From positions 1-40,277 of the forward strand of contig JAGAMD010000018.1 in assembly GCA_017624905.1 (NCBI GenBank): DNA of 40,277 nucleotides, given 5' to 3'. Positions 21,689 through 28,395 of the stretch are shown here, one piece after another. Both the position numbers and the translations under genes were made by a program. The notes beneath the pieces are model-generated. The model made no database searches, was not told the DNA's origin, and saw only the letters and a list, made by a program, of their open reading frames with translations. How positions within the stretch are numbered: the stretch's first letter is position 1; every line of letters begins with the position of its first letter. The DNA comes from Clostridia bacterium. Lineage in GTDB: Bacteria; Bacillota; Clostridia; Oscillospirales; CAG-272.

Positions 21689-23376
21689 ACTTAATCGGAA
21701 AAGCATCAGATCCAAAATTTTGGGCTGAAATAAAAAACAAACCTGAATTTAAGCATATGCTCGACTTGTTGATTAGAGATTATGAAAATGACGGTATGGG
21801 TGAGATCCCTTGCACTAAGTTTTCAAAATTTCGTCTTTTCAACGACATAGGCGACCGTTCGGTTTATCAGGTTGATTTCTTTAAGCGTCAGCACAGATTA
21901 TTTATTTTAACCGCTATGACTCTTATCTATGAAAACGAGCCAAAATATCTTGAGCTGCTACAGGACACAATTTGGGAGCTTTGCGACCAATATGTTTGGG
22001 CACTCCCTGCTCATATGCCTAACATCACTGAAAACAACAACTGTGAGCTTGACCTTGACTCAACAACAATTGGTTATGCTTTAGCCCTTATAAAGGCTAT
22101 GCTTGGCGACCGCTTGCACGATTTAATCAAAGCAAGAATCGATGCTGAGCTAGACAGACGTATAGTTAAGCCATTTCTTAGCAAAAGATGGCACTGGGAA
22201 TTTAGAGAAAATAACTGGACAACTGTATGCTCCGGTGCTGTCGGTTGTACTCTTATGCTTAACCGTCCTGAGGTTTTTGACCTTGTTCAAGACAGAATCA
22301 ATCACAATATGCAAACATATATTGATTTTGGCTATCAAGATGATGGCGTTTGTACTGAGGGTGCAGGATATTGGAGCTACGGCTTCGGTTATTACCTAAC
22401 ATATGCAGAAATGCTAAAGACCTACACAAACGGCAGAGTTGACTTAACCAAGGGCGAAAAGGTTAGAAATATTGCTATGTTTTTACAAAAGCTATTTCTT
22501 GATGAGAATGTTATAGTAAACTATGGCGACTGTGGCATTGGCAACAAGGTAACTATGCCGGCAGGATATTTATATCTTTTGAAAACACTATTCCCTGACG
22601 ATGTAGAATTACCACCGGAAAACACATTTGCATATGAAGTGCACTACTTTACATATTTCTTAAACACATTTCGTTTTTATGATCCATCTTATAAATCTGC
22701 TAAGCTATCTAAAAATGCTGAATATTTTATGGCTAACCAAGGCTGGTATGTAAAGCGTACTCCAAAATACGGCTTTGCTTGTCGTGGTGGCTCAAATGGT
22801 GAAAGCCATAACCATAACGACGTTGGCTCATTCATTTTCTCAAAAAATGATAGACAGGTATTTTGTGATATTGGCGGACGCCCATATACAAGACAATATT
22901 TTGAGCATCCTATAAGATACACATTTCTTGAAACCTCATCAAGAGGACACAATGTACCAATTATAAACGGCAAGTATCAAGGCAATGGTGGTGAACGTGC
23001 AACAACAACCTTTGAAAACGGCACTATCAAAATGGACTTTGCTTGTATCTATCATCAAGAAGAACTAACCAAGCTTGTGCGTAGCTATATGCCCGACGAA
23101 AATGGTGTTACCGTAACTGACGAGTTTATAGGTGCCAAGGAATTTACTGAAAGACTTGTTACATTGGTAGAGCCAACTATTGATGACGGCAAAATTACCG
23201 TTGACGGTGTTACTGTTACATTTGATAAAAATCAAGCTAAGGCAAGATACGAAACCGAAACACACGCACTTGAGCTTGATATAAACGGTGAAATAACCAA
23301 GGGACAAACAGTATACCTTATCAGCATTGATGTAAACGAGCCAAAGGACAAATTTACATTTAGAATTGATGCTTAA
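21685..23376 (+). CDS. Heparinase II/III family protein, cytosolic
   Basis: 563 residues: an N-terminal helical toroid (to about 310), then a beta-sandwich C-terminal half, the architecture of polysaccharide lyase families 12, 15, 17 and 21. Candidate catalytic residues are NNW (176-178), Tyr in EGAGYWSYG (225-233), His in NGESHNHNDVGSF (371-383) and SRGHN (419-423). It has no signal peptide or lipobox, so it would act inside the cell on short oligosaccharides or on an unusual uronic acid conjugate, not on extracellular heparin or alginate. Last gene of the operon, before a strong terminator. The family is clear; the substrate is not. Confidence 0.88.
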   Translation: MNLIGKASDPKFWAEIKNKPEFKHMLDLLIRDYENDGMGEIPCTKFSKFRLFNDIGDRSVYQVDFFKRQHRLFILTAMTLIYENEPKYLELLQDTIWELCDQYVWALPAHMPNITENNNCELDLDSTTIGYALALIKAMLGDRLHDLIKARIDAELDRRIVKPFLSKRWHWEFRENNWTTVCSGAVGCTLMLNRPEVFDLVQDRINHNMQTYIDFGYQDDGVCTEGAGYWSYGFGYYLTYAEMLKTYTNGRVDLTKGEKVRNIAMFLQKLFLDENVIVNYGDCGIGNKVTMPAGYLYLLKTLFPDDVELPPENTFAYEVHYFTYFLNTFRFYDPSYKSAKLSKNAEYFMANQGWYVKRTPKYGFACRGGSNGESHNHNDVGSFIFSKNDRQVFCDIGGRPYTRQYFEHPIRYTFLETSSRGHNVPIINGKYQGNGGERATTTFENGTIKMDFACIYHQEELTKLVRSYMPDENGVTVTDEFIGAKEFTERLVTLVEPTIDDGKITVDGVTVTFDKNQAKARYETETHALELDINGEITKGQTVYLISIDVNEPKDKFTFRIDA

Positions 23377-23445
23377 GTGCTACAAAGCCAATAAACACGG
23401 CACTTATCAAAATATGCTAATATGTTCATATGTTAGTTGAATATT

Positions 23446-23475
23446 AAAAGCCTTGCGTTTTGCAAGGCTTTTATT
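23446..23475. terminator. Bidirectional terminator, heparinase operon / sigma-regulon paralogue
   Basis: aaaagccttgc (23446-23456), loop gtttt, gcaaggctttt (23462-23472), followed by T-rich sequence on both strands. It lies 70 bases after the heparinase stop and 10 bases beyond the minus-strand gene ending at 23485. Confidence 0.88.
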
Positions 23476-23484
23476 TTGTTTGCG

Positions 23485-24264
23485 TCAGTATTCGGAAGCA
23501 AGATAAAATGTATATTTTTCCTTGTTTTCAATGCTTATATTGGAAAGCTGTTCTTTAGTTAAGGTTAAACATATTTGTTCTTCTTTGATTACTGCACTTG
23601 AGTTTATTTTTTTAAATACTTTTAGTCCTTCGTTTATGTTGCTAACTACAAGAGCTTTCTTTGCATCTTCAATGGTCGTTTTTAGACTGTCTATTTTATT
23701 TTTGGTATCTTCTACATCGCAAGATAGCTTTTCCTTAAAAAATTCACCATTTACTATATAGATGTTTAAAAAGTCTTCACCATAGTATAAAATTGTTTTT
23801 TCATACATTGTCTTTTTCCACTTTATCCCGTTTGGAGTACCATCAGTATACAGTACCTCACCATACTTTAGTAGTTCACCCTCATCTAATAGATACTCTG
23901 CCTTTTTTAAAAATGATTCTGCTTCCTTTAGCTCTGCAATGTATTCATCAAATAGCCTTCCGTTGTACACATAGTCATCAGGGATTGTATGATAAAGCGA
24001 AACAGCTATCTCAAGGCTATCCGTATCTTTTGCATTTAATAGCTCTTTATAAAGCTCGGGAGAAACACTTATCCCGTTCCATTCCTCATATAAAACCGGG
24101 ACTGTAACTTGATAGTTTTTATCATCTCCCGGGATTTTGATGTCGTCTGCATCGTTGTCAATATTTGCTTTTACTATAGCAAATATACATAAAGCAATTA
24201 AGGCAAGACATACTAAGACCAATACATATTTCTTCCAAGATAAGCAACCTTTATTTTCTTTCAT
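23485..24264 (-). CDS. Single-pass membrane protein, paralogue of the anti-sigma ectodomain
   Basis: 259 residues with a short cytosolic N-terminus (MKENKGCLSWKKY), one TM helix (about 12-31) and an extracytoplasmic domain of about 200 residues. From EEWNG (about 61) to the C-terminal YxLxSEx this domain aligns end to end with that of the anti-sigma factor at 24356-25231; YGE-x-LYTDGTPNG-x-KW is shared almost exactly. It lacks the cytosolic segment that would hold a sigma factor. It has its own copy of the sigma-type promoter (24306-24340), so it is probably a regulon member: a decoy, co-sensor or effector for the same external signal. No known domain is recognised. Confidence 0.82.
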   Translation of the reverse strand: MKENKGCLSWKKYVLVLVCLALIALCIFAIVKANIDNDADDIKIPGDDKNYQVTVPVLYEEWNGISVSPELYKELLNAKDTDSLEIAVSLYHTIPDDYVYNGRLFDEYIAELKEAESFLKKAEYLLDEGELLKYGEVLYTDGTPNGIKWKKTMYEKTILYYGEDFLNIYIVNGEFFKEKLSCDVEDTKNKIDSLKTTIEDAKKALVVSNINEGLKVFKKINSSAVIKEEQICLTLTKEQLSNISIENKEKYTFYLASEY

Positions 24265-24305
24265 ATTAAAATCATTCTCCCTTCATATAAAATGTCCTTT
24301 CATAA

Positions 24306-24340
24306 ATATATGTCGAGATTTTTTGTCAACTTTGGAATGT
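24306..24340 (-). promoter_or_regulatory. ECF-type promoter of the membrane paralogue
   Basis: On the minus strand, ACATTCCAAA (24340-24331), a 14-base gap, then TCGACATATAT (24316-24306). The 11-base -10 region is identical, and the -35 region differs at one base, from the element ahead of the sigma gene at 25840-25874, with the same 14-base gap. This is not a sigma-A promoter and lies 16 bases from the anti-sigma stop. Confidence 0.8.
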
Positions 24341-24355
24341 TTTTAATAATTTGTA

Positions 24356-25231
24356 TTATTTTTCCGAATAAAGCGAGAAGCTGTATTTTTCGCTATTTTC
24401 AACAAAGAGGCAGGAAAAGTCTTTTTTGGTTATAGTCATTTGTATTTCTCCATCCTCAATAGTTGCATTTTGACCTGCTTTTTCAAAATCACTTACGCTT
24501 TTTTCTAACGCTTCATTGCGAATATGATTCTTTGCCTCGTCAAGAGTTAGATTTAGCAGATTTATTTTGTTTTTTGTGCTTTCTGTATCATTAAGTAGCT
24601 TTTCCTTTAAAAATTCACCATCAACTATATAGGTGTTTAGTATGCTTTCGCCATAATAATCAATTACTTTGTCATATTTTGTTTTAGTCCATTTTACACC
24701 ATTTGGCGTACCATCTGTATAAAGTAATTCTCCGTATTTTAACAAATCGCCTTCATCTACGAGATATTTTGCCTTTGATAAAAAGTCTTTTGCTTCCTTT
24801 AATTCCTTTAAATATTCGCTGTATTTCTTTCCGTTGTATAAATAATCACTCGGGATTGAAATGCTAACAGTAGCAACTATATCAAAGGAATCCTCATCGT
24901 TTCCGTTCAAGAGTGATTCATATAGCGCCGAAGAAACCTTTAGACCATTCCACTCCTCGCCATTAATACTATCTGTTATATTAGTGTTTGGCAAAAAGCT
25001 TGAATTGGTGCTCGGTGGTGCTTTGCCTTGATTTATCATATTATTTCTAATAATAACAAGTGTGCTTACAAAAATCACGGCAAAGCAGGCTGCAATAGCA
25101 ATCCATCTTTTAAAAGAGAGGGTAATGTTTGGCTTTTTACGCTTTGTTTTTAATTCTTGCTTGGTTTTAAAATATTGCTCAATTATATCATTGTCAATAT
25201 TACTAATAGCTTCAACTAGCAGATTATTCAC
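24356..25231 (-). CDS. Membrane-bound anti-sigma factor of the ECF sigma
   Basis: 291 residues: a basic cytosolic N-terminus of about 40 residues (MNNLLVEAISNIDNDIIEQY, then Lys-rich), one TM helix (about 43-62), a Ser/Asn-rich linker, and an extracytoplasmic domain from GEEWNG (about 91) to the end. It overlaps the sigma gene by four bases (ATGA), the typical coupling of a sigma/anti-sigma pair. The N-terminus has no HxxxCxxC zinc motif, but short N-terminal segments of this sort are common in anti-sigma proteins of Clostridia. Assignment rests on context and topology. Its ectodomain is duplicated in the next gene, and no terminator separates the two. Confidence 0.8.
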   Translation of the reverse strand: MNNLLVEAISNIDNDIIEQYFKTKQELKTKRKKPNITLSFKRWIAIAACFAVIFVSTLVIIRNNMINQGKAPPSTNSSFLPNTNITDSINGEEWNGLKVSSALYESLLNGNDEDSFDIVATVSISIPSDYLYNGKKYSEYLKELKEAKDFLSKAKYLVDEGDLLKYGELLYTDGTPNGVKWTKTKYDKVIDYYGESILNTYIVDGEFLKEKLLNDTESTKNKINLLNLTLDEAKNHIRNEALEKSVSDFEKAGQNATIEDGEIQMTITKKDFSCLFVENSEKYSFSLYSEK

Positions 25232-25806
25232 AAGCTCACCCCTCTTTTCGTTAGATATTCCTTTAATCCTTTTTTTATTTTATCAATTGATTTATAAATG
25301 CTTGAAGCGGTTACGTCCATTTCATTTGCAATATATTCTATTGGATTTGACATATAAAATCTACTTACAAAAATATATTGTTGTTTTTTAGACAAGCTTT
25401 TCACATAGTCGCTTATCAGCTTTCCTAATTCCTTTGCGTTTAAGCCTGCGTCTATTTCCTCTTTACTATGTAAAAGATAACTCAAATCGTCTATCGTAGT
25501 CTTAAATTCCGATGGGATAGATCTTTTTCTGTTTTTTCTTCTGTAAAAATCTATTGATATTCTACGTATAATCTGCACTATAAAGGCAGGAAAAACGCGA
25601 GGACGAGTTGGTGGAATTGCATTCCATACTGCAAGATAAGTGTCGTTTTGACATTCCTCGCTGTCGCTTTTGTCGTTTAACACATTATAAGCAATTCTAA
25701 ATAATAGCTCTCCATATTTATTGTCGGTTTCTTCAATAGCTTTTTCTTCTCTTTGCCAATACAGCTCGATAATCTGCTCATCGTCAAGAATTTGCTTTTC
25801 CCCCAT
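25228..25806 (-). CDS. ECF-type RNA polymerase sigma factor
   Basis: 192 residues of the sigma-70 family with regions 2 and 4 only. Region 2 spans about residues 22-95 (ELLFRIAYNVLNDKSDSEEC, then NDTYLAVWNAIPPTRPRVFP and RRISIDFYRR). Region 4 spans about 130-188 (LSKKQQYIFVSRFYMSNPIE, then the helix-turn-helix YIANEMDVTASSIYKSIDKI). No promoter-like sigma-A site is visible upstream; instead the unusual element at 25840-25874 lies 34 bases from the start, implying autoregulation. Ribosome binding site AAAGGAGGACAAGCTG. The gene order sigma, anti-sigma, membrane paralogue points to an envelope stress or ligand-sensing circuit. Confidence 0.92.
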   Translation of the reverse strand: MGEKQILDDEQIIELYWQREEKAIEETDNKYGELLFRIAYNVLNDKSDSEECQNDTYLAVWNAIPPTRPRVFPAFIVQIIRRISIDFYRRKNRKRSIPSEFKTTIDDLSYLLHSKEEIDAGLNAKELGKLISDYVKSLSKKQQYIFVSRFYMSNPIEYIANEMDVTASSIYKSIDKIKKGLKEYLTKRGVSL

Positions 25807-25839
25807 CAGCTTGTCCTCCTTTCTAAATTGCTCTTTTTT

Positions 25840-25874
25840 ATATATGTCGAAATTTTTTCTTTAATTTGGAACGT
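25840..25874 (-). promoter_or_regulatory. Autoregulated ECF-type promoter of the sigma operon
   Basis: Minus strand ACGTTCCAAA (25874-25865), 14-base gap with an A-run, TCGACATATAT (25850-25840). It matches the element at 24306-24340 in both boxes and in spacing, while the surrounding sequence differs. Confidence 0.8.
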
Positions 25875-25916
25875 TTTTTCGTTTTTTATTTTTATATCAT
25901 TCCTTATATAAAGCGA

Positions 25917-25946
25917 GCTCCCTTATTTAAAGGGAGCCGTTTTTTA
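25917..25946. terminator. Hairpin terminator after the lipid kinase gene
   Basis: gctccctt (25917-25924), loop attta, aagggagc (25930-25937). The T-run is best on the plus strand (GTTTTTT); on the minus strand, the direction needed by the lipid kinase gene, only GCTTTATAT follows, so minus-strand termination may be partial. Confidence 0.6.
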
Positions 25947-26864
25947 TAATTTATGTTGAATTATGCTAACTGCCTTTGGTAGGACTTTTACATCAGCTAC
26001 ATTGTTTTCATATAGCTCACCGTCGGCTGAGATAAGCTCACAGCCCTCAACCTTAACACCTACACATTTTTTATACATTAGGAATTTTTCCGTTCCTTTT
26101 TTAACAATACAGTTATCCGGATCCTTTATGTGCTTGCCTTTTTTAAATGGGCCGACAAGAGTTAAAAATCTAAGTGCACTGATATTTTTAATTATTGTTA
26201 CATCAAGTATTCCGGAGTCTAGCTTGGCACCGGGGATAGCCTTAAAGCCACCACCATACCATCTGCCATTACCGATTGCAATAAGAAGGAATTTATCATC
26301 CATCTCCTCGGTTGTGCCATCCTCGTAGGTAAAGGTAACCTTCGCCTTAAGAGGCTTTTTGTGAAGCAGCTCACCAACAACACCAAGAATATATGCCATT
26401 GGGCCGTTTACAAACGGGAGCTTTTTAAGCTTATCTGCACGTTTGACAACGCCACAGTCAAAGCCCATATTTACTATATTAGCCGCATATTTATCATTAA
26501 ATTTCATTATGTCTGAGACAAACTCGTCAGGCATATCATCAAATGAACGGATAAAGTCATTGCCTGAGCCAATTGGCACGATTTTGAGCATTGCCTCATC
26601 GGCACATCCGCTTTCCATAACAGCATTAACGGCTCTATGTATTGTGCCATCTCCACCATAAACCGTAAAGCAGGTATCTGGCTCAACCTCACAGGATTTT
26701 CTTATAAACTCGCTGGTTTCAACCGGAGAAACAGACATGTATGTCTCATCAGTTTCGCGTATGTGCTTACGAACTCTTTTTGCTGTGCCTTTTCCTGCAA
26801 GTGGGTTCAAAATGTGCAAAATCCTTTTAATTTTGCGACCAAATGAAGTTTTAATTCCTTCCAT
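25944..26864 (-). CDS. Diacylglycerol kinase-family lipid kinase (YegS/DgkB type)
   Basis: 306-residue soluble kinase that would phosphorylate diacylglycerol or a related lipid at the inner leaflet, recycling it into phospholipid synthesis. Family motifs are HILNPLAGKGTAKRV (nucleotide loop), VYGGDGTIHRAVN, PIGSGNDFIRSF, and the C-terminal DGILDVTIIKN and ISADGELYE. It lies 29 bases downstream of the hydrolase gene, so the two are likely co-transcribed; the hydrolase could act on lipids or esters. No TM helix. Confidence 0.9.
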   Translation of the reverse strand: MEGIKTSFGRKIKRILHILNPLAGKGTAKRVRKHIRETDETYMSVSPVETSEFIRKSCEVEPDTCFTVYGGDGTIHRAVNAVMESGCADEAMLKIVPIGSGNDFIRSFDDMPDEFVSDIMKFNDKYAANIVNMGFDCGVVKRADKLKKLPFVNGPMAYILGVVGELLHKKPLKAKVTFTYEDGTTEEMDDKFLLIAIGNGRWYGGGFKAIPGAKLDSGILDVTIIKNISALRFLTLVGPFKKGKHIKDPDNCIVKKGTEKFLMYKKCVGVKVEGCELISADGELYENNVADVKVLPKAVSIIQHKL

Positions 26865-26893
26865 TATAAATCCTACCTTGATTTTTTATAGCA

Positions 26894-27541
26894 TTAAACA
26901 TCTGCTAACCATTTAATTAGGTCTGTTTCCTCAAAAGCTCTATCCCAACAGTTATGACTCAAGTCATCGAAGGCAACAAATTCTACGTTACCACCACTAG
27001 CTCTAACCGCATTTACCATAAGCTCAGAATATGCAAACGGAACAACGTCATCACGCTTGCCGTGATAAACGCGCACAGGCATTTTAATCATCCAAGCACG
27101 CCAGCTCATTCCACCTGAGCAAAGTGGAGCTATCTTTGCAAATCGCTCAGGATAAGTCATAGCTAACTCCCAAGTGCCAAAGCCTCCCATAGAAATGCCA
27201 CAGAGTGAAACTCTTTTAGGGTCAATTTGGTTGTTTGAAATAACCTCGTCGATTAACGCCATAACCTCGTTTTTAAAATCATACCAAGTAAATGGCCAAG
27301 CCGGGCATTGTGGACTAAGAGTATAAGCACGTACACCTTCATACTCCTCGTTAGCTGTAAAGAGCTTTGGTATGCAATATACCTTTAATTTTTCAATATC
27401 GTCGCCACGCTCACCAGCACCGTGCAAGAACACAATAAGAGGTAATTTTTCACCCTCTTTTATATCACTTGGAGCTGTTAAAATGTAGTTTAGCTGCTTT
27501 GCTTCAATACCATATGAAGCACTTTTCTCATACTTAATCAT
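26894..27541 (-). CDS. Alpha/beta hydrolase, esterase/phospholipase-carboxylesterase type
   Basis: 215-residue serine hydrolase. The oxyanion region is LIVFLHGAGERGDD, the nucleophile elbow GISMGGFGTWELAMTYPERF, the acid Asp in HGKRDDVVPF and the catalytic His in DLSHNCWDRAF. It has no signal peptide, so it is cytosolic. I chose the ATG at 27541, preceded by AAAGGCGAAAAAT, because upstream ATGs fall inside or beside the promoter at 27576-27604. The substrate is unknown; lipid esters are plausible from the adjacent lipid kinase gene. Confidence 0.87.
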   Translation of the reverse strand: MIKYEKSASYGIEAKQLNYILTAPSDIKEGEKLPLIVFLHGAGERGDDIEKLKVYCIPKLFTANEEYEGVRAYTLSPQCPAWPFTWYDFKNEVMALIDEVISNNQIDPKRVSLCGISMGGFGTWELAMTYPERFAKIAPLCSGGMSWRAWMIKMPVRVYHGKRDDVVPFAYSELMVNAVRASGGNVEFVAFDDLSHNCWDRAFEETDLIKWLADV

Positions 27542-27575
27542 ATTTTTCGCCTTTGGTAAATTTTTCTGCATTATA

Positions 27576-27604
27576 ATTATACCATAGATTTTGAATTTTG
27601 TCAA
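27576..27604 (-). promoter_or_regulatory. Consensus sigma-A promoter of the hydrolase-lipid kinase pair
   Basis: Minus strand TTGACA (27604-27599), 17-base spacer, TATAAT (27581-27576): both boxes are perfect. It argues against translation starts upstream of about 27570. Confidence 0.88.
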
Positions 27605-27699
27605 CCTGTGGATTTTTTTGCCATATCAGGACACAAAATATTGTGATTTTTACTTACATATGGTGCTTTTATTGTGTTATTGTGAAATGTCTTTTCGAT

Positions 27700-27740
27700 T
27701 ACTTTCGCACGGACGGTCGAGGACGCCTGTCCCTACAATT
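27700..27740. repeat. Candidate dispersed intergenic repeat
   Basis: cgcacggacggtcgaggacg followed by cctgtccctacaa, in an otherwise A/T-rich spacer. It is G/C-rich, imperfectly self-complementary (ggacgg...tgtcc), and resembles short elements scattered between genes in many gut Firmicutes. Only one copy is in this window, so repeat status rests on resemblance. Confidence 0.35.
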
Positions 27741-27776
27741 TATATTTTTTTGTTTTCATTCTTGTTTTTTGAGATA

Positions 27777-27812
27777 AAAAAAGAGATTTTGCGTTTGCAA
27801 AATCTCTTTTTA
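27777..27812 (-). terminator. Terminator of pduL
   Basis: A stem of about 14 bp, aaaagagattttgc (27779-27792) with gcaaaatctctttt (27797-27810), loop gttt, followed on the minus strand by a T-run. It begins about 10 bases beyond the pduL stop. Confidence 0.9.
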
Positions 27813-27822
27813 TGTATTTAAA

Positions 27823-28395
27823 TTATTTAATGATTTCGCCGTAAACAACGCCAAATGCACAAGAAGCATTAGCCTCGTCTGTGTCAATGTGCATTGCTGC
27901 TGCGAAGTTTGGATGTACTCTTACAACAACATCATCAAAGATTGTTGTTCTGTCTGATACAACCTTAACCTTTACGATTTCCTTATCGCTAACGCCCGCC
28001 TCAGCTGCCTCGTCTGGTGTGAAGTGGATATGTCTCTTTGCGATAATAACGCCCTCGCTAAGCTCAACCTCACCACATGGGCCAACGAGCTTACATGGAG
28101 CTGAATTTGCAACATCTCCGCTCTCTCTTACAGGAGCTGTAACACCAAGTGTACGAGCATCTGTAAATGAAACCTCAACCTGTGAAGCCTTTCTTTCAGG
28201 GCCAAGAATACTTACTCTCTCAATAGACTTCTTAGGGCCTACAACAGTAACTCTCTCTTGACAAGCGAATTGACCCGGTTGGCTGAGATCCTTAATATTT
28301 GTGAGCTGATAATCCTTGCCGAAAAGGATGTCGATGTGCTCACGTGAAAGATGCACGTGACGTGCGCTTGTTTCAACTAAAACCTTGTTATTCAT
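27823..28395 (-). CDS. pduL: Phosphate propanoyltransferase (PduL-type phosphotransacylase)
   Basis: 190-residue enzyme that exchanges CoA and phosphate on short acyl groups (acyl-CoA + Pi to acyl phosphate). Two PduL beta-barrel domains are recognisable. Metal-ligand histidines are H13 and H15 (SARHVHLSREH), H122 and H124 (AKRHIHFTPDEA) and H169 (MHIDTDEAN); the conserved Arg is near 90 (TAPVRESGD). It lacks the N-terminal encapsulation helix, and no microcompartment shell genes are nearby, so it is most likely a cytosolic phosphotransacetylase for acetate or propionate formation. Own promoter and terminator. Confidence 0.93.
   Translation of the reverse strand: MNNKVLVETSARHVHLSREHIDILFGKDYQLTNIKDLSQPGQFACQERVTVVGPKKSIERVSILGPERKASQVEVSFTDARTLGVTAPVRESGDVANSAPCKLVGPCGEVELSEGVIIAKRHIHFTPDEAAEAGVSDKEIVKVKVVSDRTTIFDDVVVRVHPNFAAAMHIDTDEANASCAFGVVYGEIIK

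Follow-up and report, generated by a model that had tools for sequence, protein, structure and literature searches.

A sigma operon on the minus strand of this 40,277-nucleotide stretch of DNA from a gut Clostridia bacterium (the window, meaning the whole stretch) is followed by a paralogue of the operon's own putative anti-sigma factor gene, and similar sequence boxes lie upstream of both units. The preliminary description of the locus proposed that the sigma factor recognizes these boxes and drives itself plus the paralogue. This raises the question of whether the two units form a regulon, and of what use a copy of part of the receptor would be as its output.

Genes and promoter-like elements in the window

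The first gene of the operon encodes an ECF sigma factor, with both region 2 and the overall ECF profile above curated cut-offs: the product matches Sigma70_r2 (PF04542) at 47.2 bits (cut-off 24) and TIGR02937 (sigma70-ECF) at 69.9 bits (cut-off 42.9), the latter over residues 24-185 of 192. The anti-sigma role of the second gene product is inferred from the gene arrangement (Table 1), and the order of sigma gene then anti-sigma gene is also kept in relatives. This protein consists of an N-terminal stretch, one hydrophobic stretch and a sensor domain from about residue 90. The paralogue has the hydrophobic stretch and the sensor domain, the similarity given in Table 1 being that of the region after the hydrophobic stretch, and it lacks the N-terminal stretch, where the alignment shows a gap. 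Because the N-terminal stretch is presumably the sigma-binding part of the anti-sigma factor, what had been described as a membrane-protein paralogue is, more precisely, a copy of the sensor that lacks this presumed sigma-binding region. Neither the anti-sigma protein nor the paralogue matches Pfam or NCBIfam at E 0.001. The genome has a second ECF gene (G000:C22:57912-58460), which shows 34% identity and has a different leader. A phage origin was also considered and set aside, as a viral-contig scan with the anti-sigma protein gave no relative.

Table 1. Genes and promoter-like boxes of the cassette (window positions)
Feature	Position	Strand	Basis
ECF sigma factor gene, 192 aa	25228..25806	(-)	Pfam and NCBIfam profiles
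Putative anti-sigma factor gene, 291 aa, GTG start	24356..25231	(-)	Position, 4-nt overlap with sigma gene, alignment
Paralogue (sensor copy) gene, 259 aa	23485..24264	(-)	51.7% identity over 209 residues to anti-sigma factor
Sigma operon upstream (-35-like) box GTTCCAAA	25865..25872	(-)	Pattern match and comparison with relatives
Sigma operon downstream (-10-like) box TCGACATATAT	25840..25850	(-)	Pattern match and comparison with relatives
Paralogue upstream (-35-like) box ATTCCAAA	24331..24338	(-)	Pattern match and comparison with relatives
Paralogue downstream (-10-like) box TCGACATATAT, then TTATGAAAG common to relatives	24306..24316	(-)	Pattern match and comparison

The pattern ACRTTCCAAA-N14-TCGACATATAT is present twice in the window with zero mismatches, in both cases on the minus strand, at 25842-25874 before the sigma operon and at 24308-24340 before the paralogue. 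These exact matches confirm the earlier count of 20 agreeing box positions out of 21 and the constant 14-nt gap. When up to three mismatches are allowed, 100 shuffles average 0.01 matches and none of them has two. Because the pattern was itself derived from the data, pattern-free tests were run too. Aligned without gaps, the two leaders share a best 35-mer with 29 matching positions, a value reached by none of 3000 dinucleotide shuffles (maximum 25). Among the 171 pairs formed by 19 upstream regions of the window (from a gene list picked by hand) they rank first, and the next pair has 25.

No match to a sigma-A promoter at 9/12 was found in either of the two leaders, which agrees with the earlier statement that neither resembles one. 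The companion statement, that most other transcription units of the window have such a promoter, holds only loosely: matches occur in 10 of the 17 other units (gap at least 60 nt). Shuffled versions of the full set of 19 regions average 5.2, and a count of 10 is reached in 3 of 200. Elsewhere in the window, a perfect 12/12 sigma-A promoter at 27576-27604 (-) overlaps the listed TTG start of an esterase reading frame, and the true esterase start is therefore probably further in.

Conservation of the element and extent of the regulon

Phylogenetic footprinting recovered seven sites in five genomes (G011 and the own genome with two each, G003, G009 and G001 with one each), at which the boxes read near ATTCCAAA and TCGACATATAT and the gap is constant. 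The boxes of the seven sites have mean pairwise identities of 93% and 83%. The spacer reaches 55%, the A/T-rich stretch of 15 nt upstream 58% and the remaining positions 32-50%, with composition by itself predicting 32-45%. The spacer and the near flanks are above the composition expectation (55% vs 39%; 58% vs 43%; 50% vs 32%), and thus common descent may explain part of the likeness. The footprint supports the proposal that an ECF-type promoter drives the sigma operon and the paralogue, and we infer that the ECF sigma factor contacts the element.

Like canonical ECF promoters, the element has two boxes, with a -10 of CGAC or TGAC type and a spacing close to the usual one. It differs from them in that the boxes here read TTCCAAA and CGAC, TGAC or TTAC; AAC in the -35 and CGT in the -10 were once regarded as typical, and the passages on this point in PMC8103513 state that an AAC/CGT promoter no longer defines an ECF sigma factor. 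The ECF promoters of Clostridia are poorly defined, and the three ECF consensus sequences of C. difficile are said to "remain to be identified" in the excerpted text of PMC7438776. The predicted promoter in the window is readable from relatives and small enough for rebuilding in a laboratory host.

When six genomes (G000, G001, G003, G009, G011 and G019) were searched jointly, 10 sites with at most two mismatches were found. Seven of them lie upstream of a sensor copy or of a sigma gene of the same type, at a distance of 2-41 nt, and the remaining three within reading frames of 149, 426 and 924 aa. An extended element, a stricter pattern that no longer picks up the own sigma site or the paralogue site of G011, matches once in each of 5 of the 29 genus genomes, always ahead of a sensor copy or a sigma gene of this type, and its reversed control matches in 0 of 29. 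All five genomes are among the seven in the genus with a sigma match of at least 50% identity (the match in G021 is partial). The two of these seven without the extended element are G021 and G019, the latter with a recognizable -10 and a weak -35. Moreover, the second sigma factor of G011 (55% identity) retains the element although its anti-sigma partner there has a different ectodomain, and thus the element travels with the sigma type. More distant sigma leaders (L062, L038 and L054) keep a GACTTATA-type -10 and have a changed -35.

A TGAAAG or TGAAGG string follows the -10 box at a near-constant distance, at 24297-24305 (-) and in the leaders L081, L082, L083, L061, L084, L067, L068 and L066, and recurs even in more distant ECF leaders with other boxes, a recurrence that is biased because the leader scoring included the string. 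It is present in six of the seven footprint sites. It may be a common start-region element or part of a ribosome site.

The pattern had also been offered as a tool for finding further members of the regulon. It does find both known sites, but no other site with at most one mismatch exists in the own draft genome (1.51 Mb, 74.7% complete); the visible regulon is thus the cassette alone. At three mismatches, forward and control counts are alike, 39 vs 29 in the own genome and similar across the 29 genomes. From the 39 own-genome matches, 30 were taken as loci, giving 27 distinct sites for examination because three loci yielded a site next to the intended one, and 25 of these lie inside reading frames of at least 131 aa, the other two being the sites already named. 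The six-genome scan gave 61 matches, among which all 10 with at most two mismatches and 20 of the 51 with three were examined. Two of these 20, L186 and a contig-end site (L192), lie outside any reading frame. A few others (L184, L195 and L199) lie in short frames only, with a 317-aa frame 63 nt downstream of L195. Because eight control genomes give similar numbers, the three-mismatch sites were treated as noise, and there may be a weak further site in the six genomes.

Locus arrangement in relatives and the proposed circuit

The element precedes the sigma gene, with no sensor copy alongside, in G003, in G001 and at the second locus of G011. In G003 the anti-sigma gene is followed by an unrelated lipoprotein-like gene; in G001 the anti-sigma factor has an extra C-terminal domain and its gene is directly followed by a subtilase gene (L084:3633-5585); and at the second G011 locus the anti-sigma factor has another ectodomain and a trypsin-like protease gene comes next (L061:2391-3350). 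In G009 the sensor copy comes first and has the element, and the sigma leader is without one (best score 16 vs 22-28 in leaders having one). This leader reads GTTATAAT by eye, with the sigma-A scan giving 9/12 in a different register, and a terminator-like hairpin, which the scan lists on the opposite strand only, lies between the sensor copy and the sigma gene. At the first locus of G011 two sensor copies lie upstream, the first with a weaker element, and the sigma leader has no element and a 10/12 sigma-A match. TATAAT stands in place of the element in the sigma leaders of both G009 and this G011 locus. Judged from sequence, self-activation is not universal, since at these two loci the element is found only before the sensor copy.

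A sensor copy lies beside the pair in 3 of the 35 regions of this sigma family (the window, G009 and the first G011 locus), the 35 being the window and 34 others, some of which end at contig ends. L068, L079 and L090 have other repeated pairs, which judging by their position are not the anti-sigma gene. In the tree, the own paralogue and the own anti-sigma factor are sisters (96/97), as are the G009 paralogue and G011 paralogue 1 (100/100), and the other 8 of 10 forks are weak. These pairings suggest that the sensor copy had more than one origin, or underwent homogenisation, and was each time brought under this element, which both kinds carry. A copy with the element where the sigma gene has none is the best argument for the copy as the intended output. 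Against this, the element stands before a sensor copy at three of the seven sites (own, G009 and G011) and serves sigma operons at the other four, and in two of the five genomes the pair has no neighbouring copy.

We propose that the locus is a self-activating pair of ECF sigma factor and membrane anti-sigma factor, in which the sigma factor drives its own operon and a spare sensor copy that catches ligand. The parts read directly from sequence are the order of the genes, both elements with their conservation in relatives, and the paralogue's lack of the N-terminal stretch. The circuit as a whole we consider probable; its promoter part is very likely to be right, and for its ligand-catching part, which is argued by analogy, we would put the chance at about even. 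In this circuit, the sigma factor would recognize TTCCAAA-N15-CGACATATA and transcribe two units, its own operon and the gene for the membrane-anchored spare sensor copy, and transcripts would be expected to begin 10-13 nt past the C of CGAC. A ligand outside the cell would bind the anti-sigma ectodomain, the anti-sigma factor would then be destroyed or opened, and the freed sigma factor would raise both transcripts. The spare copy might bind the same ligand, so that the cell would be protected and the signal damped, as with LbpA and lysozyme in C. difficile. Among the points that count against the circuit, all sites adjoin a sigma gene of this kind, so that the sigma factor and the element are linked by association, and TTCCAAA differs from the usual AAC -35.

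The present data fit alike a model in which the sigma factor drives both units and the paralogue, instead of catching ligand, is a regulator in competition with the anti-sigma factor for whichever protease or partner initiates signalling, thereby setting the gain or shutting the response off. The paralogue does have the sensor domain of the anti-sigma factor and the same element, as would be expected of a feedback part, and the N-termini of the G009 and G011 copies, which look like lipoprotein signals by eye, would hold these copies at the same membrane. However, the one published analogue, LbpA, is reported, in the passages of PMC9044953 that deal with it, to have no role in sigmaV activation or regulation, and we regard a regulatory paralogue as possible but rather unlikely. 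It could also be argued that the two elements are alike merely through a recent duplication of the sigma operon, the second copy being a relic without promoter function. This would accord with the sister relationship of the own paralogue and the own anti-sigma factor, with the excess identity in the spacer and near flanks, and with the own paralogue leader, whose likeness to the sigma leader of G003 extends past the boxes (both have TTTATGAAAGGACATT). It is nevertheless very unlikely, as the boxes (93% and 83%) are far more conserved than the spacer (55%) and flanks (32-58%), and the G009 paralogue, on a different branch, keeps the element though the G009 sigma gene is without one. A further reading, in which the element is bound by another DNA-binding regulator or acts as a local sigma-A promoter, is highly improbable: the association with sigma genes cannot itself name the protein, TTGACA lies in the own paralogue spacer and a 9/12 sigma-A-like match overlaps the element in G011 paralogue 1 and the G001 leader, but the two boxes keep a fixed promoter-like spacing just before start codons, TTGACA is missing from the spacers of the other six sites, the own leaders give no sigma-A match at the same threshold, and no further regulator gene common to the cassettes was seen by eye.

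The preferred circuit, with a ligand-catching copy under the control of the sigma factor, has a precedent in the csfV (sigmaV) operon of C. difficile, where LbpA is described as a membrane-bound relative of RsiV that lacks the sigmaV-binding domain, binds lysozyme and gives low-level protection (PMC9044953, passages on LbpA). The cassette would share with csfV/RsiV/LbpA, so far as those passages describe it, an ECF sigma factor, a membrane anti-sigma factor (here putative) with an outside sensor and a membrane-bound sensor relative without the sigma-binding domain. Its paralogue is likewise a relative of the anti-sigma factor without the presumed sigma-binding domain and, judged by the element, is in the sigma regulon; LbpA lies within the csfV operon, whereas the window paralogue has its own copy of the element (for the operon, PMC9044953 as excerpted). 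In contrast to csfV/RsiV/LbpA, the window sensor matches neither DUF4163 nor DUF3298 and no deacetylase gene was seen in the cassette. Because the sensor domains are unrelated by sequence, the cassette is not classed as an RsiV or LbpA member, though it would work like one. It would be a second, sequence-unrelated instance of the LbpA layout, in which the output of the sigma factor is a spare copy of its own receptor, and this suggests that receptor copies are a recurring answer to an outside threat rather than a curiosity of lysozyme sensing. The receptor-copy ECF layout itself is known; here it comes with an unnamed sensor domain and an unusual -35 box, and the regulon is smaller than hoped.

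The sensor domain and other comparisons

The sensor domain has no family name; in gut Clostridia it is also part of anti-sigma-like proteins encoded next to other sigma types. A Pfam search with nine related proteins, run to E 10, gave only stray matches, the best at E 0.0073 in a single protein, with none to DUF4163/DUF3298, the RsiV ectodomain, and no DUF3298 match was found anywhere in the own draft genome. Profile comparison of the sensor with DUF3298, using a DUF3298 profile of eight rows that include L218 in the wrong frame, gave 2% probability over the hydrophobic stretch only. For the window anti-sigma protein, the sole Pfam match up to E 10 is to DUF6674, with an E of 0.034 and a score short of the DUF6674 cut-off; the RsgI N-terminal family, for which Pfam includes a model, was not matched. 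The sensor profile found nothing better than E 0.73 among solved-structure sequences, and Foldseek with the sensor domain gave no match at E 0.001 or better in the PDB and viral libraries. RsiV is absent among the fold matches listed, which does not show that the folds differ. No paper on this domain was found in the open-licence literature, where the domain has no name to search by.

The models might be read as giving the shared sensor a subtilase-propeptide-like fold, its two beta-alpha-beta halves separated by an inserted long helical hairpin, but this is doubtful. On this reading the anti-sigma factor would sense a subtilisin-like protease, either the cell's own or that of competitors, and the paralogue would be a sigma-induced, membrane-anchored protease inhibitor or propeptide mimic. 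The order beta-alpha-beta, hairpin, beta-alpha-beta is present in both sensor models, the Inhibitor I9 / subtilase propeptide fold has a beta-alpha-beta beta-alpha-beta core, 3afg_A is the top VIA row for one of the two models, and in G001 a subtilase gene comes directly after the anti-sigma gene. The I9 match was not confirmed by Pfam (E up to 10), by profile comparison or by the second model. Compared with the propeptide region of the G001 subtilase, the sensor domain scored 0.3% probability and the additional C-terminal domain found in the anti-sigma factor of G001 scored 6%, and a third propeptide profile comparison was disregarded as circular because G001 sequence stood on both sides.

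The cassette also resembles sigmaV-RsiV of B. subtilis, an ECF sigma factor with a receptor-type anti-sigma factor, whose ectodomain both senses and inhibits its ligand and, in the portion of PMC5014341 that describes the assay, inhibits lysozyme almost completely at 1:1 in vitro. The window sensor differs in having no sequence relation to the DUF3298 profile. In SigI-RsgI systems, ectodomain modules recur in secreted products; here a dockerin protein with the sensor domain was seen only at the distant loci L133 and L134. Like SigI-RsgI of cellulolytic clostridia, which according to the excerpted text of PMC6056542 usually regulates itself and shares an operon with its anti-sigma gene, the cassette has a sigma operon that would activate itself; unlike it, the window sigma factor is of ECF type and the anti-sigma factor matches no RsgI family.

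By eye, comparison of window positions 23376-28395 with L081, L082 and L083 indicates that the cassette has moved locally. It lies after a lipid kinase gene in the window and in G003, and in G009 and G011 between a gene that we take to be PduL-like and an esterase gene. In G027 (L212:5006-5956) an orphan, internally shortened anti-sigma-like gene follows two DNA methyltransferase-like genes (by eye); no sigma gene was seen beside it, and the best element match in the 12 kb region has four mismatches. At L133:1012-3719 and L134:1458-4165, a sigma/anti-sigma-like pair is followed by the dockerin protein, which bears both its neighbour's ectodomain (41.8% identity) and the sensor domain of the window, and after it comes a large secreted-looking protein with an HEYGH stretch (by eye).
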